DNA of 64,000 bases from assembly GCF_947499845.1 (NCBI RefSeq), contig NZ_CANMPM010000003.1:186001-250000 (forward strand), written 5' to 3'. Both the position numbers and the translations under genes were made by a program. Each line of letters starts with the position of its first letter. Position 1 is the stretch's first letter. This document shows, piece after piece, positions 45,112 through 54,074 of this stretch. Source of the stretch: an uncultured Pseudokineococcus sp. Its GTDB lineage: Bacteria > Actinomycetota > Actinomycetes > Actinomycetales > Quadrisphaeraceae. The notes under the pieces were generated by a model, which did not search any database, was not told the origin of the DNA, and saw only the letters and a list, made by a program, of their open reading frames with translations.

Positions 45112-45522
45112 TCAGGCGGCGACGAGCGGCGCGCGCAGCGGGTGCTCGCCGCGGGGGAGGAGCACCTGGGCGGCGAGCCCCGTGCCGGCGTGGACGACGA
45201 TCGGCGCCAGGAGGTTGGCGGTGCTGGCGGCGAGCGACGCGCCCGGCGTGATGACGACGAGCAGGAGCGCGTCGTCGGCCGTCTCGAGGCCGAGGCCCTC
45301 GACGTCGTCCTCCTCGACCTCCGGCGCGTAGTCGGGGAACCAGGCGCCGGGGGCGAGGACGACGAGGCGCACGCCGTCGGCCTCGAGCGACTGCAGGGAG
45401 TACAGGGTCCCCGTGTCGTCGAGGCGCACGAGCGCGAAGCGGGTGAGCTGCTCGAGGCCCGGCAGCGGCGCGACGAAGCGCACCTCGGGCAGGGCGGGCG
45501 GGGGCGTCGTCGCAGCGCTCAC
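45112..45522 (-). CDS. fliW: Flagellar assembly factor FliW
   Basis: Small protein of 136 aa that binds flagellin and, in Bacillus, sequesters the translational repressor CsrA. Family blocks: LPEVRFVAPLPGLEQLTRFALV, LYSLQSLEADGVRLVVLAPGAWFPDYAPEV, LLLVVITPG and ANLLAPIVVHAGTGLAAQVLL. GTG 45522 overlaps the flgL stop (GTGA), so it ends the flgN-flgK-flgL-fliW operon. csrA usually follows fliW in Firmicutes but is not here. The flagellin leaders in this window carry candidate CsrA sites. Confidence 0.93.
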   Translation of the reverse strand: MSAATTPPPALPEVRFVAPLPGLEQLTRFALVRLDDTGTLYSLQSLEADGVRLVVLAPGAWFPDYAPEVEEDDVEGLGLETADDALLLVVITPGASLAASTANLLAPIVVHAGTGLAAQVLLPRGEHPLRAPLVAA

Positions 45523-48626: not shown

Positions 48627-48739
48627 CGGTCCGGGGCGGCGGGAGGCGGGGAGGGGGCGTCCGACCGGGTGGTCCGGGGCGACGCCGTGACCCGTCCGGG
48701 CTCAAGGCCCTCAGCCGCCGGGACGAGGACTGCAGCGTG

Positions 48740-49816
48740 ATGATCCCGACGCAGCGCACGGCCGAGCCCGCCGCCCCGCGCACCGCGCGCGCCGCGACCG
48801 CTCCCCGCAGCGCCTCCCCCCGCACCTCCCGCCGTGACGCGGCCGCCGTCGAGGCGCTCGTCACCGCCCACCTGCCGCTCGTCGGCCACGTGGTCCGGGA
48901 GGTCGCCATGCGCCTGCCCGCCCACGTCGACTCCGGCGACCTCGCCGGCGCCGGTGCCGCCGGGCTGCTGCAGGCCGCGCGCGGGTACGACGAGGAGACC
49001 GGCGTCCCCTTCACGCGGTACGCGAGCACCCGCATCCGCGGGGCCGTGCTCGACGAGCTGCGGGTCATGGACCTCGTGAGCCGCGGCGTCCGCTCGCGCG
49101 GCCGGGAGATGCACGGCGTCGAGGACTCCCTCACGGCCACCCTCGGCCGCCGGCCCACCCGCGAGGAGCTGGCGGGGGCCATGGGCGTCGGGACCGCCGA
49201 GGTCGACCGCCGCCGGGCCGAGTCCGGCGTGACCGTCTCCAGCCTCGACGCCCCGGTCGCGGGCTCGGGCGACGGCGGCGAGGCGCTCGCCCGCACGTGG
49301 GCCGAGGGCCTGGCCGACGAGCGGCCCGGTCCCGAGGAGCTGGCGCTGCGCGCCGAGCGCATGCGCGTCATGGGCGCCGGCGTCGCCGCGCTGCCCGAGC
49401 GGCTGCGCCGCGTCGTCGTCGGCACCTTCCTCGAGCAGCGCCCGCTGGCCGAGGTCGCCGAGGAGCTCGGCGTCACGGAGTCGCGCGTGAGCCAGCTGCG
49501 CACCGAGGCGCTCGGCCTCCTGCGCGCCGGCATGGAGGCCGTGCTCGAGCCCCAGCGACCGGCCGAGGCCCCTGTGGGCGTCGCGGCCCGTCGCCGCGAG
49601 GCCTTCTACGCCGACGTCGCCCTGCACGCCGCCGCGGCGGGCGTCGGCAGCGCCGCCCGCTCCGCGCAGGCCCGCGAGGAGCTGGCCTCCCGCGCCGCGG
49701 CGCCCGCGCGGACGGCCGCCTCCGCGGCCGCGGTCGCGGCAGCCGCCGCCGTGCCCGCGCAGCGCCAGGCCGTGCGGCCGGCGCCGTGGGTGACGCGCCA
49801 GGCCCTGCCGGCCTGA
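48740..49816 (+). CDS. fliA: Flagellar sigma factor FliA (sigma-28)
   Basis: RNA polymerase sigma factor of 358 aa. Region 2 (LVGHVVREVAMRLPAHVDSG, then YDEETGVPFTRYASTRIRGA), region 3 (LGRRPTREELAGAMGV) and region 4 (LPERLRRVVVGTFLEQRPLAEVAEELGVTESRVSQL) are all present. A low-complexity N-terminus (about 35 aa) and an extra 85-aa Ala-rich C-terminus are unusual compared with the 240-260 aa norm. ATG 48740 is preferred to the adjacent GTG 48737. It is divergent from flgN and should transcribe the CTCA-N16-GCCGA promoters around it. Confidence 0.93.
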   Translation: MIPTQRTAEPAAPRTARAATAPRSASPRTSRRDAAAVEALVTAHLPLVGHVVREVAMRLPAHVDSGDLAGAGAAGLLQAARGYDEETGVPFTRYASTRIRGAVLDELRVMDLVSRGVRSRGREMHGVEDSLTATLGRRPTREELAGAMGVGTAEVDRRRAESGVTVSSLDAPVAGSGDGGEALARTWAEGLADERPGPEELALRAERMRVMGAGVAALPERLRRVVVGTFLEQRPLAEVAEELGVTESRVSQLRTEALGLLRAGMEAVLEPQRPAEAPVGVAARRREAFYADVALHAAAAGVGSAARSAQAREELASRAAAPARTAASAAAVAAAAAVPAQRQAVRPAPWVTRQALPA

Positions 49817-49872
49817 CCCGCCTCGCCGCGCGCTCGGCCGTTTACCCGGTCGGGTCAGTGGCGAACAGACCC

Positions 49873-49900
49873 CTCAAGCCTCCGTCGTGGGGGCCGATGA
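49873..49900 (+). promoter_or_regulatory. FliA promoter of flagellin gene 1
   Basis: CTCA (49873-49876), 16 nt, GCCGATGA (49893-49900), 72 nt before the start codon. Confidence 0.8.
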
Positions 49901-49907
49901 GGAGGCG

Positions 49908-49963
49908 GAGCCACCACGGACGGGGGCTCTCCGACCACCACCTGCTCCACCTCACGGAAGAGG
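49908..49963 (+). promoter_or_regulatory. Flagellin 1 leader: hairpin with ACGGAC loop plus ACGGA at the RBS
   Basis: GAGCC-A-CC (49908-49915) pairs with GG-G-GGCTC (49922-49929) around the loop ACGGAC. A second ACGGA (49954-49958) runs into the ribosome-binding site GGAAGAGGA. ANGGA in a hairpin loop plus another at the Shine-Dalgarno is the CsrA target layout. The GGA triplets are 38 nt apart. Confidence 0.65.
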
Positions 49964-49972
49964 ACTCCAGTC

Positions 49973-50818
49973 ATGGGTTTCCAGATCAACAACAACGTCG
50001 CCGCGTTCAACGCCTACCGGAACCTGTCGGTCACGCAGAACTCGGTGTCCAGCTCCCTCGAGAAGCTGTCCTCGGGTCTCCGCATCAACCGCGCGGCGGA
50101 CGACGCGGCCGGCCTGGCGATCTCCGAGGGCCTGCGCTCGCAGGTCGGTGGCCTCAAGGTCGCCGTCCGCAACGCCCAGGACGGCATCAGCGTCGTCCAG
50201 ACCGCCGAGGGTGCGCTGTCCACCAGCACCTCGATCCTGCAGCGCATGCGCGACCTCACCGTGCAGTCGGCCAACAGCGGTGGCCTCAACGCCTCCGCCA
50301 AGGGCAACATCCAGAAGGAGGTCGACCAGCTCGCCGAGGAGCTCACCCGCATCTCGACGACGACCAAGTTCAACGGCAAGAACCTGCTGGACGGCACCTA
50401 CAACGGCGCCTTCCAGGTGGGCGCCAACGGCGGCGAGCAGATCGCCGTCCGCATCACCGCCAACGCCGACCCCGCCACGAACACGGCGCTCAGCGCTGCG
50501 GGCCTCGGGGTGGGCGCGCTCAACGTCACGACGGACGCCGGCTCCACCGCGGCGCTCACGGCCATCGACGCGGCCATCGGCACGGTCTCGACGACGCGGG
50601 CGGACCTGGGTGCGAAGCAGAACCGGCTCGAGATGACGATCAAGAACCTCAACGTCTCGGTCGAGAACCTCTCGGCGTCGGAGAGCCGGATCCGCGACAC
50701 CGACATGGCCGCGGAGATGGTGTCCTTCACGAAGTCCCAGATCCTGTCCCAGGCGGGCACGGCGATGCTGGCCCAGGCCAACCAGATGGGCCAGGGCGTC
50801 CTGTCCCTGCTCCGCTGA
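49973..50818 (+). CDS. fliC: Flagellin, copy 1
   Basis: Filament subunit of 281 aa. N-terminal D0/D1 (MGFQINNNVAAFNAYRNLSV through LSTSTSILQRMRDLTVQSAN) and C-terminal D1/D0 (ESRIRDTDMAAEMVSFTKSQ to GQGVLSLLR) are nearly identical to the three copies downstream. The central region, about residues 150-200, differs and is too short for large D2/D3 domains. Has its own FliA promoter, leader hairpin and terminator, so each copy is a separate unit. Confidence 0.96.
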   Translation: MGFQINNNVAAFNAYRNLSVTQNSVSSSLEKLSSGLRINRAADDAAGLAISEGLRSQVGGLKVAVRNAQDGISVVQTAEGALSTSTSILQRMRDLTVQSANSGGLNASAKGNIQKEVDQLAEELTRISTTTKFNGKNLLDGTYNGAFQVGANGGEQIAVRITANADPATNTALSAAGLGVGALNVTTDAGSTAALTAIDAAIGTVSTTRADLGAKQNRLEMTIKNLNVSVENLSASESRIRDTDMAAEMVSFTKSQILSQAGTAMLAQANQMGQGVLSLLR

Positions 50819-50870
50819 GCGCGGCGGGCGCGAGCCCGCCAGCCAGCACGAGCAGCGCCTCAGCAGCACC

Positions 50871-50910
50871 CGCAGCGGCGGTCCCGAGCGAGCTCGGGGC
50901 CGCCGCTGCG
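50871..50910 (+). terminator. Stem-loop terminator after flagellin 1
   Basis: CGCAGCGGCGGTCCCGAGC pairs with GCTCGGGGCCGCCGCTGCG, one G-U pair, 2-nt loop. No U-tract, normal for high-GC actinobacteria. Confidence 0.75.
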
Positions 50911-50951
50911 GCGTCCTGCGGGGCCGTCCGGGTGACGGCCGCGGCCTCCTC

Positions 50952-50979
50952 GTCAGGCGCCGGGCCGACGGGTCGATGA
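50952..50979 (+). promoter_or_regulatory. FliA promoter of flagellin gene 2
   Basis: GTCA (50952-50955), 16 nt, GTCGATGA (50972-50979). One mismatch in each box relative to the other flagellins, so probably weaker. Confidence 0.68.
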
Positions 50980-50986
50980 GGAGGGG

Positions 50987-51039
50987 GAGCCACCACGGAC
51001 GGGGGCTCGACCACCATCAGCTCCACCTCACGGAAGAGG
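50987..51039 (+). promoter_or_regulatory. Flagellin 2 leader: ACGGAC-loop hairpin plus ACGGA at the RBS
   Basis: Same stem as flagellin 1 (GAGCC at 50987, GGCTC at 51004-51008) with loop ACGGAC at 50995-51000. Second ACGGA at 51030-51034 adjoins AGAGG of the ribosome-binding site. GGA spacing 35 nt. Confidence 0.65.
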
Positions 51040-51047
51040 CACACCTC

Positions 51048-51908
51048 ATGGGTTTCCAGATCAACAACAACGTCGCCGCGTTCAACGCGTACCGGAACCT
51101 GTCGGTCACGCAGAACTCGGTCAGCAGCTCCCTCGAGAAGCTCTCCAGCGGCCTGCGGATCAACCGCGCGGCGGACGACGCGGCCGGCCTGGCGATCAGC
51201 GAGGGCCTGCGCAGCCAGGTCGGTGGCCTCAAGGTCGCCGTCCGCAACGCCCAGGACGGCATCAGCGTCGTCCAGACCGCCGAGGGCGCCCTGTCGACCT
51301 CCACCTCGATCCTGCAGCGCATGCGCGACCTGTCGGTCCAGGCCGCGAACGACGGTGGCCTCAACGCCTCCGCCAAGGGGAACATCCAGAAGGAGTTCAA
51401 CCAGCTCTCCGAGGAGCTCACCCGGATCGCCGACACCACCCAGTTCAACGGCAAGAAGCTGCTGGACGGCACCTACAACGGCGCCTTCCAGGTCGGGGCC
51501 AACGGCGGCGAGCAGATCTCCGTGACGATCACCTCGGGCGGCACGCCCGCCGGCCTCGGCGCGGTCGGGCTCGGTGTCGCGACCGCCGGTGCCACCCCCG
51601 GGACGGACCCCGACGTCCCGCTCGTGGTCGACGCCGCGGGCACCCTCGCGACGATCGACGCGGCCATCGGCAAGGTGTCGACGGCGCGGGCGGACCTGGG
51701 TGCGAAGCAGAACCGGCTCGAGATGACGATCAAGAACCTCAACGTCTCGGTCGAGAACCTGTCCGCCTCGGAGAGCCGGATCCGCGACACCGACATGGCC
51801 GCGGAGATGGTCTCGTTCACGAAGTCCCAGATCCTGTCCCAGGCCGGCACGGCGATGCTGGCCCAGGCCAACCAGATGGGCCAGGGCGTCCTGTCCCTGC
51901 TCCGCTGA
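51048..51908 (+). CDS. fliC: Flagellin, copy 2
   Basis: Filament subunit of 286 aa. Ends as in copy 1; variation is confined to about residues 110-215, for example EFNQLSEELTRIADTTQFNG and a Gly/Ala/Pro stretch before ATIDAAIGKVSTARADLGAK. Start ATG 51048 is fixed by the MGFQINNN N-terminus and AAGAGG upstream. Its promoter is the least consensus-like of the four, so expression may be lower. Confidence 0.96.
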   Translation: MGFQINNNVAAFNAYRNLSVTQNSVSSSLEKLSSGLRINRAADDAAGLAISEGLRSQVGGLKVAVRNAQDGISVVQTAEGALSTSTSILQRMRDLSVQAANDGGLNASAKGNIQKEFNQLSEELTRIADTTQFNGKKLLDGTYNGAFQVGANGGEQISVTITSGGTPAGLGAVGLGVATAGATPGTDPDVPLVVDAAGTLATIDAAIGKVSTARADLGAKQNRLEMTIKNLNVSVENLSASESRIRDTDMAAEMVSFTKSQILSQAGTAMLAQANQMGQGVLSLLR

Positions 51909-51967
51909 GCACGGCGGGCGCGAGCCCGCGAGTGCCCAGCACCACCAGCACGACCAGCAGCACCCGC

Positions 51968-52000
51968 AGCGGCGGTCCCGAGCGAGCTCGGGCCGCCGCT
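51968..52000 (+). terminator. Stem-loop terminator after flagellin 2
   Basis: AGCGGCGG-T-CCCGAGC pairs with GCTCGGG-CCGCCGCT; the T is bulged because the G opposite it in copy 1 is missing. No U-tract. Confidence 0.72.
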
Positions 52001-52044
52001 TCGGCGTCCCCGGGCACCGTTCGGGTGACGTCGGGGGAAGCCGG

Positions 52045-52072
52045 CTCAGGCCCGCGCCCGCGCGGCCGATGA
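52045..52072 (+). promoter_or_regulatory. FliA promoter of flagellin gene 3
   Basis: CTCA (52045-52048), 16 nt, GCCGATGA (52065-52072). Confidence 0.8.
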
Positions 52073-52080
52073 CAGGAGCA

Positions 52081-52131
52081 CGCCCCCACGGACGGGGGCG
52101 CGACCACCACCGCACCACCTCACGGAAGAGG
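52081..52131 (+). promoter_or_regulatory. Flagellin 3 leader: ACGGAC-loop hairpin plus ACGGA at the RBS
   Basis: A 7-bp stem CGCCCCC (52081-52087)/GGGGGCG (52094-52100) closes the same loop ACGGAC. The stem differs from copies 1 and 2 on both sides while the loop is unchanged. Second ACGGA at 52122-52126 next to AGAGG. GGA spacing 34 nt. Confidence 0.68.
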
Positions 52132-52139
52132 CACACCTC

Positions 52140-53009
52140 ATGGGTTTCCAGATCAACAACAACGTCGCCGCGTTCAACGCCTACCGGAACCTGTCGGTCA
52201 CGCAGAACTCGGTCAGCAGCTCCCTCGAGAAGCTCTCCAGCGGCCTCCGGATCAACCGCGCCGCCGACGACGCGGCCGGCCTGGCCATCAGCGAGGGCCT
52301 GCGCAGCCAGGTCGGTGGCCTCAAGGTCGCCGTCCGCAACGCCCAGGACGGCATCTCCGTCGTCCAGACCGCCGAGGGCGCCCTCGGCACCAGCACCGCC
52401 ATCCTGCAGCGCATGCGCGACCTGTCCGTCCAGGCCGCGAACGACGGTGGCCTCAACGCCTCCGCCAAGACCAACATCCAGAAGGAGATCACGCAGCTGA
52501 ACGAGGAGCTGACGCGCATCTCCGACACCACGCAGTTCAACGGCAAGGCGCTGCTGACCGGCGGCTACACCGGCGCCTTCCAGGTCGGGGCCAACGGCGG
52601 CGAGCAGATCTCCGTCGCCATCACGACCGACATGGACGCCGCCGGTCTCGGCACCAGCGTCATCGACGTCACCGCCGCCTCGACGCCCAGCACGCGCGAC
52701 GGCAACGGCGTCATCACCGCCTACGGCACCGGCGCGCAGGGCGCCATCGACCGCATCGACACGGCCATCAGCACTGTCTCGACGGCGCGGGCGGACCTGG
52801 GTGCGAAGCAGAACCGGCTCGAGATGACGATCAAGAACCTCAACGTCTCGGTCGAGAACCTCTCGGCGTCGGAGTCGCGCATCCGCGACACCGACATGGC
52901 GCAGGAGATGGTGTCCTTCACCAAGTCCCAGATCCTGTCCCAGGCCGGCACGGCGATGCTCGCCCAGGCCAACCAGATGGGCCAGGGCGTCCTGTCCCTG
53001 CTCCGCTGA
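52140..53009 (+). CDS. fliC: Flagellin, copy 3
   Basis: Filament subunit of 289 aa, the longest of the four. Most divergent middle: GTSTAILQRM instead of STSTSILQRM, NIQKEITQLNEELTRISDTT, KALLTGGYTGAFQVG, and an extra Asp/Gly/Ala segment before AIDRIDTAISTVSTARADLG. It also reads DTDMAQEMV where the others have DTDMAAEMV. ATG 52140 follows AAGAGG. Possibly a distinct filament segment or minor subunit. Confidence 0.96.
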   Translation: MGFQINNNVAAFNAYRNLSVTQNSVSSSLEKLSSGLRINRAADDAAGLAISEGLRSQVGGLKVAVRNAQDGISVVQTAEGALGTSTAILQRMRDLSVQAANDGGLNASAKTNIQKEITQLNEELTRISDTTQFNGKALLTGGYTGAFQVGANGGEQISVAITTDMDAAGLGTSVIDVTAASTPSTRDGNGVITAYGTGAQGAIDRIDTAISTVSTARADLGAKQNRLEMTIKNLNVSVENLSASESRIRDTDMAQEMVSFTKSQILSQAGTAMLAQANQMGQGVLSLLR

Positions 53010-53050
53010 GCACGGCGGGCGTCAGCCCGCACGCACGACCAGCAGCACCC

Positions 53051-53090
53051 GCAACGGCGGTCCCGAGCCCAGGCCCGGGGCCGCCGCTGC
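53051..53090 (+). terminator. Stem-loop terminator after flagellin 3
   Basis: GCAACGGCGGTCCCGAGCC with GGCCCGGGGCCGCCGCTGC; one A-C mismatch in the lower stem, which is repaired by compensation in copy 4. Confidence 0.7.
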
Positions 53091-53134
53091 GGCGTCCCCG
53101 GGCGACTCGTCCGGGTGACGACAGGGGGAGCCCG

Positions 53135-53162
53135 CTCAGGTCCCCGCCCGCTCGGCCGATGA
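53135..53162 (+). promoter_or_regulatory. FliA promoter of flagellin gene 4
   Basis: CTCA (53135-53138), 16 nt, GCCGATGA (53155-53162). Confidence 0.8.
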
Positions 53163-53171
53163 CACGAGCAC

Positions 53172-53217
53172 GCCCCCACGGACGGGGGCCGTCCGACGCA
53201 CGACCCTCAGGGAAGAG
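53172..53217 (+). promoter_or_regulatory. Flagellin 4 leader: ACGGAC-loop hairpin plus AGGGA at the RBS
   Basis: GCCCCC (53172-53177)/GGGGGC (53184-53189) closes the loop ACGGAC. The second motif is AGGGA at 53209-53213, still ANGGA, in the ribosome-binding site. GGA spacing 31 nt. Confidence 0.65.
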
Positions 53218-53225
53218 AGACAGTC

Positions 53226-54074
53226 ATGGGTTTCCAGATCAACAACAACGTCGCCGCGTTCAACGCCTACCGGAACCTGTCGGTCACGCAGAACTCGGTG
53301 TCCAGCTCCCTCGAGAAGCTGTCCAGCGGCCTGCGGATCAACCGCGCGGCGGACGACGCGGCCGGCCTGGCGATCTCCGAGGGCCTGCGCTCGCAGGTCG
53401 GTGGCCTCAAGGTCGCCGTCCGCAACGCCCAGGACGGCATCAGCGTCGTCCAGACCGCCGAGGGTGCGCTGTCCACCAGCACCTCGATCCTGCAGCGCAT
53501 GCGCGACCTGTCGGTCCAGGCCGCGAACGACGGTGGCCTCAACGCCTCCGCCAAGGGCAACATCCAGAAGGAGATCGTCCAGCTGCGCGAGGAGCTCACC
53601 CGGATCTCCGACACCACCCAGTTCAACGGCAAGAAGCTGCTGGACGGCACGTACAACGGCGCCTTCCAGGTCGGGGCCAACGGCGGCGAGCAGATCGCCG
53701 TCGCCATCGGCACCGACATGGACGCCACCGGCCTCGGCCTCAACACCATCGACGTCACGACCCCCGCAGCGGCGGGCCCGCCCGCGGTGCCGTCGGGTGC
53801 CCAGTCGGCGATCGCCCTCATCGACACGGCGATCGGCACCGTCTCGACGGCGCGGGCGGACCTGGGTGCGAAGCAGAACCGGCTCGAGATGACGATCAAG
53901 AACCTCAACGTCTCGGTCGAGAACCTCTCGGCGTCGGAGAGCCGGATCCGCGACACCGACATGGCCGCGGAGATGGTGTCCTTCACGAAGTCCCAGATCC
54001 TGTCCCAGGCCGGCACGGCGATGCTGGCCCAGGCCAACCAGATGGGCCAGGGCGTCCTGTCCCTGCTCCGCTGA
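53226..54074 (+). CDS. fliC: Flagellin, copy 4
   Basis: Filament subunit of 282 aa. N- and C-terminal domains as in copies 1-3; middle NIQKEIVQLREELTRISDTT and a Pro/Ala-rich short loop before SAIALIDTAIGTVSTARADL. Last of the tandem set, followed by fliD under its own FliA promoter. ATG 53226 follows GGAAGAGAG. Confidence 0.96.
   Translation: MGFQINNNVAAFNAYRNLSVTQNSVSSSLEKLSSGLRINRAADDAAGLAISEGLRSQVGGLKVAVRNAQDGISVVQTAEGALSTSTSILQRMRDLSVQAANDGGLNASAKGNIQKEIVQLREELTRISDTTQFNGKKLLDGTYNGAFQVGANGGEQIAVAIGTDMDATGLGLNTIDVTTPAAAGPPAVPSGAQSAIALIDTAIGTVSTARADLGAKQNRLEMTIKNLNVSVENLSASESRIRDTDMAAEMVSFTKSQILSQAGTAMLAQANQMGQGVLSLLR

Follow-up and report, generated by a model that had tools for sequence, protein, structure and literature searches.

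Why do four tandem flagellin genes of an actinobacterium carry the same six-letter RNA loop in leaders whose stems differ? The question arises from a 64,000-nucleotide stretch of the genome of an uncultured Pseudokineococcus sp. (contig NZ_CANMPM010000003.1, positions 186,001 to 250,000; hereafter the window), for which a preliminary description had reported a hairpin with the loop ACGGAC and a second ANGGA motif in the leader of each flagellin messenger RNA (mRNA), and had suggested feedback control of flagellin translation by CsrA and its antagonist FliW. Overall, our analysis supported that interpretation, as a CsrA homologue is present and the loop is conserved; by analogy with other bacteria, the four leaders very likely act as CsrA operators in a CsrA-FliW-flagellin checkpoint.

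Re-reading of the window gave the same letters and coordinates for the ACGGAC loop in all four leaders (Table 1), and two stem types around this fixed loop, as had been described. The stem of copies 1 and 2 is GAGCCACC/GGGGGCTC with one A.G mismatch, whereas copies 3 and 4 have CGCCCCC/GGGGGCG and GCCCCC/GGGGGC, respectively. The second ANGGA, at the ribosome-binding site, reads ACGGA, ACGGA, ACGGA and AGGGA in copies 1 to 4 and lies 38, 35, 34 and 31 nt from the first, in agreement with the 31-38 nt given earlier; in copies 1 to 3 it can form a 4-bp hairpin of its own, CCTC-ACGGAA-GAGG. All four leaders therefore contain at least two GGA sites including one at the ribosome site. The fliD leader in the window, which had been described as lacking the motif, has a sigma28-like -10 box, and neither an ANGGA nor an ANGGA hairpin was found in it. 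Among the matches listed, the nearest flagellins outside this genome were those of Pseudokineococcus (95% and 81% identity), which points to a Pseudokineococcus-like bacterium, probably of the Kineosporiaceae.

The frequency of the hairpin was assessed in the best 80 flagellin loci of the genome collection together with the four window leaders (84 in total), over the 110 nt preceding each start. With a minimum of five closing pairs and one mismatch allowed, an ANGGAN hexaloop was found in 73 of the 84 leaders, compared to 1.3 expected from dinucleotide shuffles, and the runner-up among 256 loop patterns reached 7. With at least four pairs, the count rose to 79 (3.0 expected), including one leader (L054) whose match at -94 is away from the usual place; the hairpin was absent at this setting from five leaders, one from Mobiluncus (L071) and four from Bacillota or Clostridia (L081-L084). 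The leader of Kurthia, also of the Bacillota (L072), has the hairpin with the loop AGGGAC. A hold-out covariance model trained on 61 rows, none of them from Pseudokineococcus, ranked the four sites at the top of the window with 22.6-26.1 bits, the next match scoring 17.4 bits.

Covariation was evaluated in an alignment of 67 distinct leaders that was gap-free and anchored on ANGGA irrespective of the stem. For pairs of ANGGA at a distance of 4 nt, the 5' member served as the anchor, which required shifting rows L036, L045 and L073; identical rows were merged, and L072 and L081-L084 (Bacillota/Clostridia) as well as L071 (no ANGGA in range) were excluded. The A and the GGA are invariant by construction due to this anchoring, while the closing C-G pair was invariant in 67/67 rows without being selected. 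Standard pairs filled 86.8% of stem cells, compared to 58.5% after shuffling and no more than 47.2% with the pairing partners slid, and seven of the eight stem pairs vary on both sides. The covariation score of 0.607 dropped to 0.148 on shuffling and to 0.149 or less on sliding the partners. Within the same genus and family, all 19 leaders that could be read had the hairpin, with changed stems; they come from 20 retrieved loci, in one of which no start could be located, and a further place was left out. Leaders of related genera thus keep the GGA loop while their stems covary. The common loop might alternatively reflect no more than paralogues that were recently duplicated or homogenised by gene conversion, for which the four tandem copies and their near-identical ends would speak. 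This is contradicted by the covariation, and the ANGGA loop also occurs on different stems in other families and in Acidimicrobiales; we consider it next to impossible.

In a class-wide sample of 393 genomes, which probably shares species with the 84-leader sample, 43 genomes (our own included) had a flagellin match above 100 bits. A csrA gene was found in 42 of these 43 compared to 16 of the 350 others, and fliW, searched in the 58 genomes that had a PF00669 match of any score, in the same 42 of 43; within the genus and family set, csrA was present in 8 of 9 strong-flagellin genomes. The hairpin, here with at least four pairs, occurred in 50 of 53 distinct leaders and in 41 of the 43 genomes, our own included. 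Leaders without it were a paralogue in genome G040 (L159) and that of G349, a genome in which csrA and fliW are both absent; a leader of G067, whose start is unsettled, was not readable and was counted as a miss. Two flagellin leaders of this sample deviate in architecture: in L249 (G026), the ribosome site follows a tandem pair of ANGGA hairpins, which gives three possible CsrA sites, and L248 (G311), 5' of an intact flagellin, leads into a start that resembles flagellin but continues divergently, and has kept the hairpin.

The genome under study encodes both proteins that the checkpoint would need. The preliminary description had proposed a genome search for csrA, and one copy was found outside the window (C3:271889-272041; PF02599, E 2.6e-23 in a family search) within an 87-aa open reading frame (ORF). 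It lies about 40 kb from fliW, on a stretch shared with flhA (PF00771); a gene beside csrA was initially taken as flhF, a name that was dropped as it had no Pfam match. The Bacillus order, in which fliW adjoins csrA, was not found in this genome, but such an arrangement does not define the system, as Campylobacter lacks it too; in other members of the class, such as G378, G181 and G164, the two genes lie within a few hundred bases. The ORF previously called fliW was confirmed as a FliW family member (Table 1). The alignment of CsrA with Bacillus subtilis CsrA (1t3o) spans residues 1-71 and takes in the C-terminal extension. Both proteins of the solved CsrA-FliW complex were matched as well, 5dmb_D by CsrA over 2-74 and 5dmb_A by FliW. 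CsrA keeps L4 and R44, which contact RNA elsewhere, and V51 and N55, which contact FliW elsewhere. Among the 18 actinobacterial CsrA proteins that could be read (30 loci tried), R44 and N55 were present in all, and position 51 was V or I in nine, L in eight and M in one.

The position of the hairpin relative to the promoter bears on two further explanations. Of the 79 hairpin-bearing leaders, 71 have a -10-like box 10-45 nt ahead of the loop, 59 of them at 22-25 nt, a descriptive count because the pattern set was drawn up after the leaders had been seen; in all four window leaders, 7-9 nt separate the box from the hairpin. This near-constant distance suggests that the flagellin mRNA probably begins at the hairpin or a few nucleotides before it. 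One might propose a role of the hairpin as a 5' stem protecting flagellin mRNA from decay, unrelated to CsrA, for which its probable 5' location and the commonness of long stems would speak. However, loop identity is irrelevant to a stabiliser, yet ANGGAN exceeds the next loop pattern 73 to 7; stem letters vary while the loop stays, and strong flagellins accompany csrA and fliW, which makes a purely protective stem improbable. The fairly constant spacing behind the -10-like box could also mean that the conservation concerns the sigma28 promoter or the initial transcribed region and not an RNA site. Covariation between paired arms is unexpected for a promoter, and the fliD leader combines a sigma28-like box with the lack of a hairpin; we regard this explanation as very improbable.

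The ANGGA of the second site is in part simply a Shine-Dalgarno sequence. A C nevertheless precedes the ribosome-site ANGGA in 57 of 71 distinct flagellin leaders compared to 24 of 62 other ORFs at the same loci, and an ANGGA with a closing pair was found in 64 of 71 compared to 29 of 62, although the Fisher tests on these counts, like those on the csrA counts above, ignore relatedness. A ribosome-site ANGGA also occurred in 62 of 163 control ORFs, whose starts were picked by a rule that requires a Shine-Dalgarno-like stretch and not by annotation. Since Shine-Dalgarno sequences often contain ANGGA, the motif at the ribosome site is weak evidence when taken alone.

By analogy with Bacillus and Campylobacter, from which CsrA binding, repression and the FliW partner switch are carried over, the following mechanism may be proposed. 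The flagellin mRNA would open with a CsrA operator composed of the ANGGA-hexaloop hairpin and the second ANGGA at the ribosome-binding site about 35 nt on, and a CsrA dimer would bridge both sites and block ribosomes. FliW would bind the C-terminal part of CsrA and thereby remove it from the leader, and unexported flagellin would in turn bind FliW. A build-up of flagellin in the cell would consequently free CsrA and shut off flagellin translation.

Several observations weigh against this mechanism. The hairpin of copies 3 and 4 folded with a probability of 1.0 when 30 nt of coding sequence were included (ViennaRNA), but that of copy 1 reached 0.29 and that of copy 2 0.01. When the coding part was cut to 8 nt, the optimal fold included the hairpin of copy 2 but still not that of copy 1. 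The complete window leaders were no better folded than shuffles (z -0.15 to -0.94). Across 78 leaders with 30 nt of coding sequence, the mean probability of the inner pairs was at least 0.5 in 67. In copies 1 and 2, CsrA may select the structure, or the hairpin may form during transcription. With respect to gene content, G393, a genome of the same genus in 580 contigs, keeps the hairpin in several flagellin leaders and gave no match in the csrA search, which is likely caused by an assembly gap. The hairpin-less paralogue L159 is a further exception, and the natural negative control is a weak one, as G349 is the single strong-flagellin genome that lacks csrA. Finally, csrA also occurs in seven genomes in which PF00669 gave no match (G090, G220, G281, G324, G327, G338 and G386), implying that CsrA has another role in them; five, all of genus g71, have lower csrA scores of 58-63 bits.

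Candidate targets beyond flagellin were searched for in the same genome using a covariance model whose training rows include the window (R1), which returned 14 matches at E up to 10. Apart from the flagellin sites, one match just past the window (C3:254789-254814; 20.3 bits, E 1.04) is an ACGGAC hairpin before flbD, preceded by a sigma28-like GCCGATAG box and followed by AAGGA at the flbD ribosome site. In this genome, the only one in which the order was checked, flbD, motA and motB are consecutive (PF06289, PF01618 and PF13677). The hold-out model ranked the flbD site first in its 19.9-kb stretch (20.5 bits). FlbD was found in all 42 flagellated genomes searched, and a hairpin with at least five pairs was present in the flbD leader of 16 of the first 29 loci (0.29 expected) and 6 of 13 further loci, giving 22 of 42 flagellated class genomes, our own included, with the unreadable L263 scored as a miss and with one of the 22 (L191) resembling a chance fit. 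Together with hairpins of three to four pairs from three leaders, 24 flbD hairpins covary (0.562 versus 0.188), and in several flbD leaders the second site is also a hairpin, GCACT-AAGGAT-GGTGC.

Other matches call for caution, because the csrA-less G349 yielded five R1 matches at E up to 0.3. R1 alone is thus not diagnostic, its E-values are over-optimistic in GC-rich genomes so that context is needed, and single matches elsewhere are not above background. The strongest non-flagellar match, a biotin carboxylase leader (C7:38657, 25.8 bits), was rejected: of three other genomes of the genus, two have GCGGAC as the loop and the third has a dissimilar leader. Matches L176 and L177 were likewise rejected as they lie between converging ORFs. 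Two leaders of one genus (L245 and L247, in G012 and G031) combine a sigma28-like box with GCACCCC-AGGGAC-GGGGTGC before a cheA-like start with an Hpt domain, and another (L240, in G344) has a sigma28-like box and CCCCGGCGCC-ACGGAC-GGCGCCGGGG before a GGDEF protein (PF00990), likely a diguanylate cyclase.

Whether flagellated actinobacteria share a sigma28-CsrA leader through which CsrA-FliW sets not only flagellin but also flbD-motA-motB and, in two different genera, cheA and perhaps a diguanylate cyclase, respectively, is, in our judgment, an evenly balanced proposition. If so, late flagellar promoters would fire directly into a CsrA hairpin and could tie motor and chemotaxis output to filament assembly. 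Alternatively, the flagellin leaders might mainly serve as a sponge, with four abundant flagellin mRNAs titrating CsrA away from weaker targets. The excerpts available of the Campylobacter work describe such titration by the flaA leader (PMC4894983), and this genome has four flagellin copies and a lower-scoring flbD site. A second site over the ribosome-binding site rather fits repression, and we consider a predominant sponge role unlikely, though less so than the protective stem discussed above; the two roles are compatible, and the sponge overlaps with the operator reading that we favour.

The features of the window are listed in Table 1. The -10 and -35 labels of flagellin copy 1 are based on likeness to the sigma28 consensus.

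Table 1 Features of the four flagellin leaders and neighbouring genes (positions within the window).
Feature	Position	Strand	Basis
FliW gene (fliW), proposed CsrA antagonist	45112..45522	-	PF02623 96.7 bits; 5dmb_A FliW match E 1.2e-12
Sigma factor gene directly 5' of flagellin copy 1; presumed flagellar sigma28, label from context	48737..49816	+	Sigma70 regions 2, 3, 4
-35-like stretch TCAAG, copy 1	~15 nt 5' of -10 box	+	read from sequence
-10 box, sigma28-like, GCCGATGA, copy 1	49893..49900	+	read from sequence
5' hairpin copy 1, loop ACGGAC 49916-49921, proposed CsrA site 1	49908..49929	+	hold-out model 22.6 bits
CCTC-ACGGAA-GAGG at ribosome-binding site, copy 1, proposed CsrA site 2	49950..49963	+	
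Flagellin copy 1, 281 aa	49973..50818	+	PF00669 + PF00700
-10 box, sigma28-like, GTCGATGA, copy 2	50972..50979	+	read from sequence
5' hairpin copy 2, loop ACGGAC 50995-51000	50987..51008	+	hold-out model 26.1 bits
CCTC-ACGGAA-GAGG at ribosome-binding site, copy 2	51026..51039	+	
Flagellin copy 2, ATG start chosen to match other copies	51049..51908	+	
-10 box, sigma28-like, GCCGATGA, copy 3	52065..52072	+	read from sequence
5' hairpin copy 3, perfect 7-bp stem, loop ACGGAC 52088-52093	52081..52100	+	hold-out model 26.1 bits
CCTC-ACGGAA-GAGG at ribosome-binding site, copy 3	52118..52131	+	
Flagellin copy 3, 289 aa	52140..53009	+	
-10 box, sigma28-like, GCCGATGA, copy 4	53155..53162	+	read from sequence
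5' hairpin copy 4, 6-bp stem, loop ACGGAC 53178-53183	53172..53189	+	hold-out model 23.5 bits
AGGGA at ribosome-binding site, copy 4	53209..53213	+	read from sequence
Flagellin copy 4, 282 aa	53226..54074	+	

If the operator reading holds, the translational checkpoint of Bacillus, Clostridioides and Campylobacter would reach flagellated Actinomycetota, and a testable CsrA regulon would become available in this phylum. The leader would also provide a covariation-supported RNA element for annotation, for which no Rfam family gave a match: the window gave no match at gathering score, and the region 49800-53300 gave six that were far below it. Motor genes would be predicted to stand under the same control, a link that we did not meet in the accessible parts of the open-licence literature. 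In the same literature, we found neither the actinobacterial hairpin nor a role of flbD-motAB as CsrA target reported, and no experimentally established CsrA target for Actinomycetota. What appears to be new by this comparison is the hairpin element and the candidate target flbD-motA-motB, while the checkpoint itself was already known.

Nor is the idea of CsrA control in this group wholly new, given that the genome paper of the related actinobacterium Kineococcus radiotolerans (2008), which has csrA in a motility island, proposed CsrA control of flagellin from a ribosome-site match to hag BS2 (PMC2587704). The accessible account does not describe the hairpin site, its covariation or a second target, and FliW has no mention in the main text (PMC2587704). 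According to excerpts of other papers, Actinobacteria have been listed among the phyla that possibly use FliW to control CsrA (PMC4682653), and a survey of flagellar proteins includes CsrA and FliW (PMC10746217). For Actinosynnema, a swrD(flbD)-motA-ompA-fliL operon under PhoP has been deduced, with no CsrA site mentioned for it in the part of the paper at hand (PMC9019756).

Of the characterised systems, B. subtilis hag resembles the present one in its two CsrA sites, one of them at the Shine-Dalgarno sequence, in the FliW antagonist and in a CsrA with a C-terminal extension, as far as the cited excerpts go (PMC7652899, PMC6529632); csrA and fliW are adjacent in Bacillus and about 40 kb apart here. 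The closest known system is Campylobacter jejuni flaA, a sigma28-dependent gene whose leader has one ANGGA site in a 5' stem-loop and another over the ribosome site, likewise in a stem-loop, with compensatory changes among relatives and with FliW as antagonist, again as described in the portions available (PMC4894983). Further flagellar mRNAs are bound by CsrA in C. jejuni, as would be the candidates suggested here, and fliW lies apart from csrA there as well (PMC4894983). Unlike the Campylobacter system, the present one belongs to another phylum, has GC-rich and often longer stems, and combines four tandem flagellins with flbD-motAB as a further candidate target.

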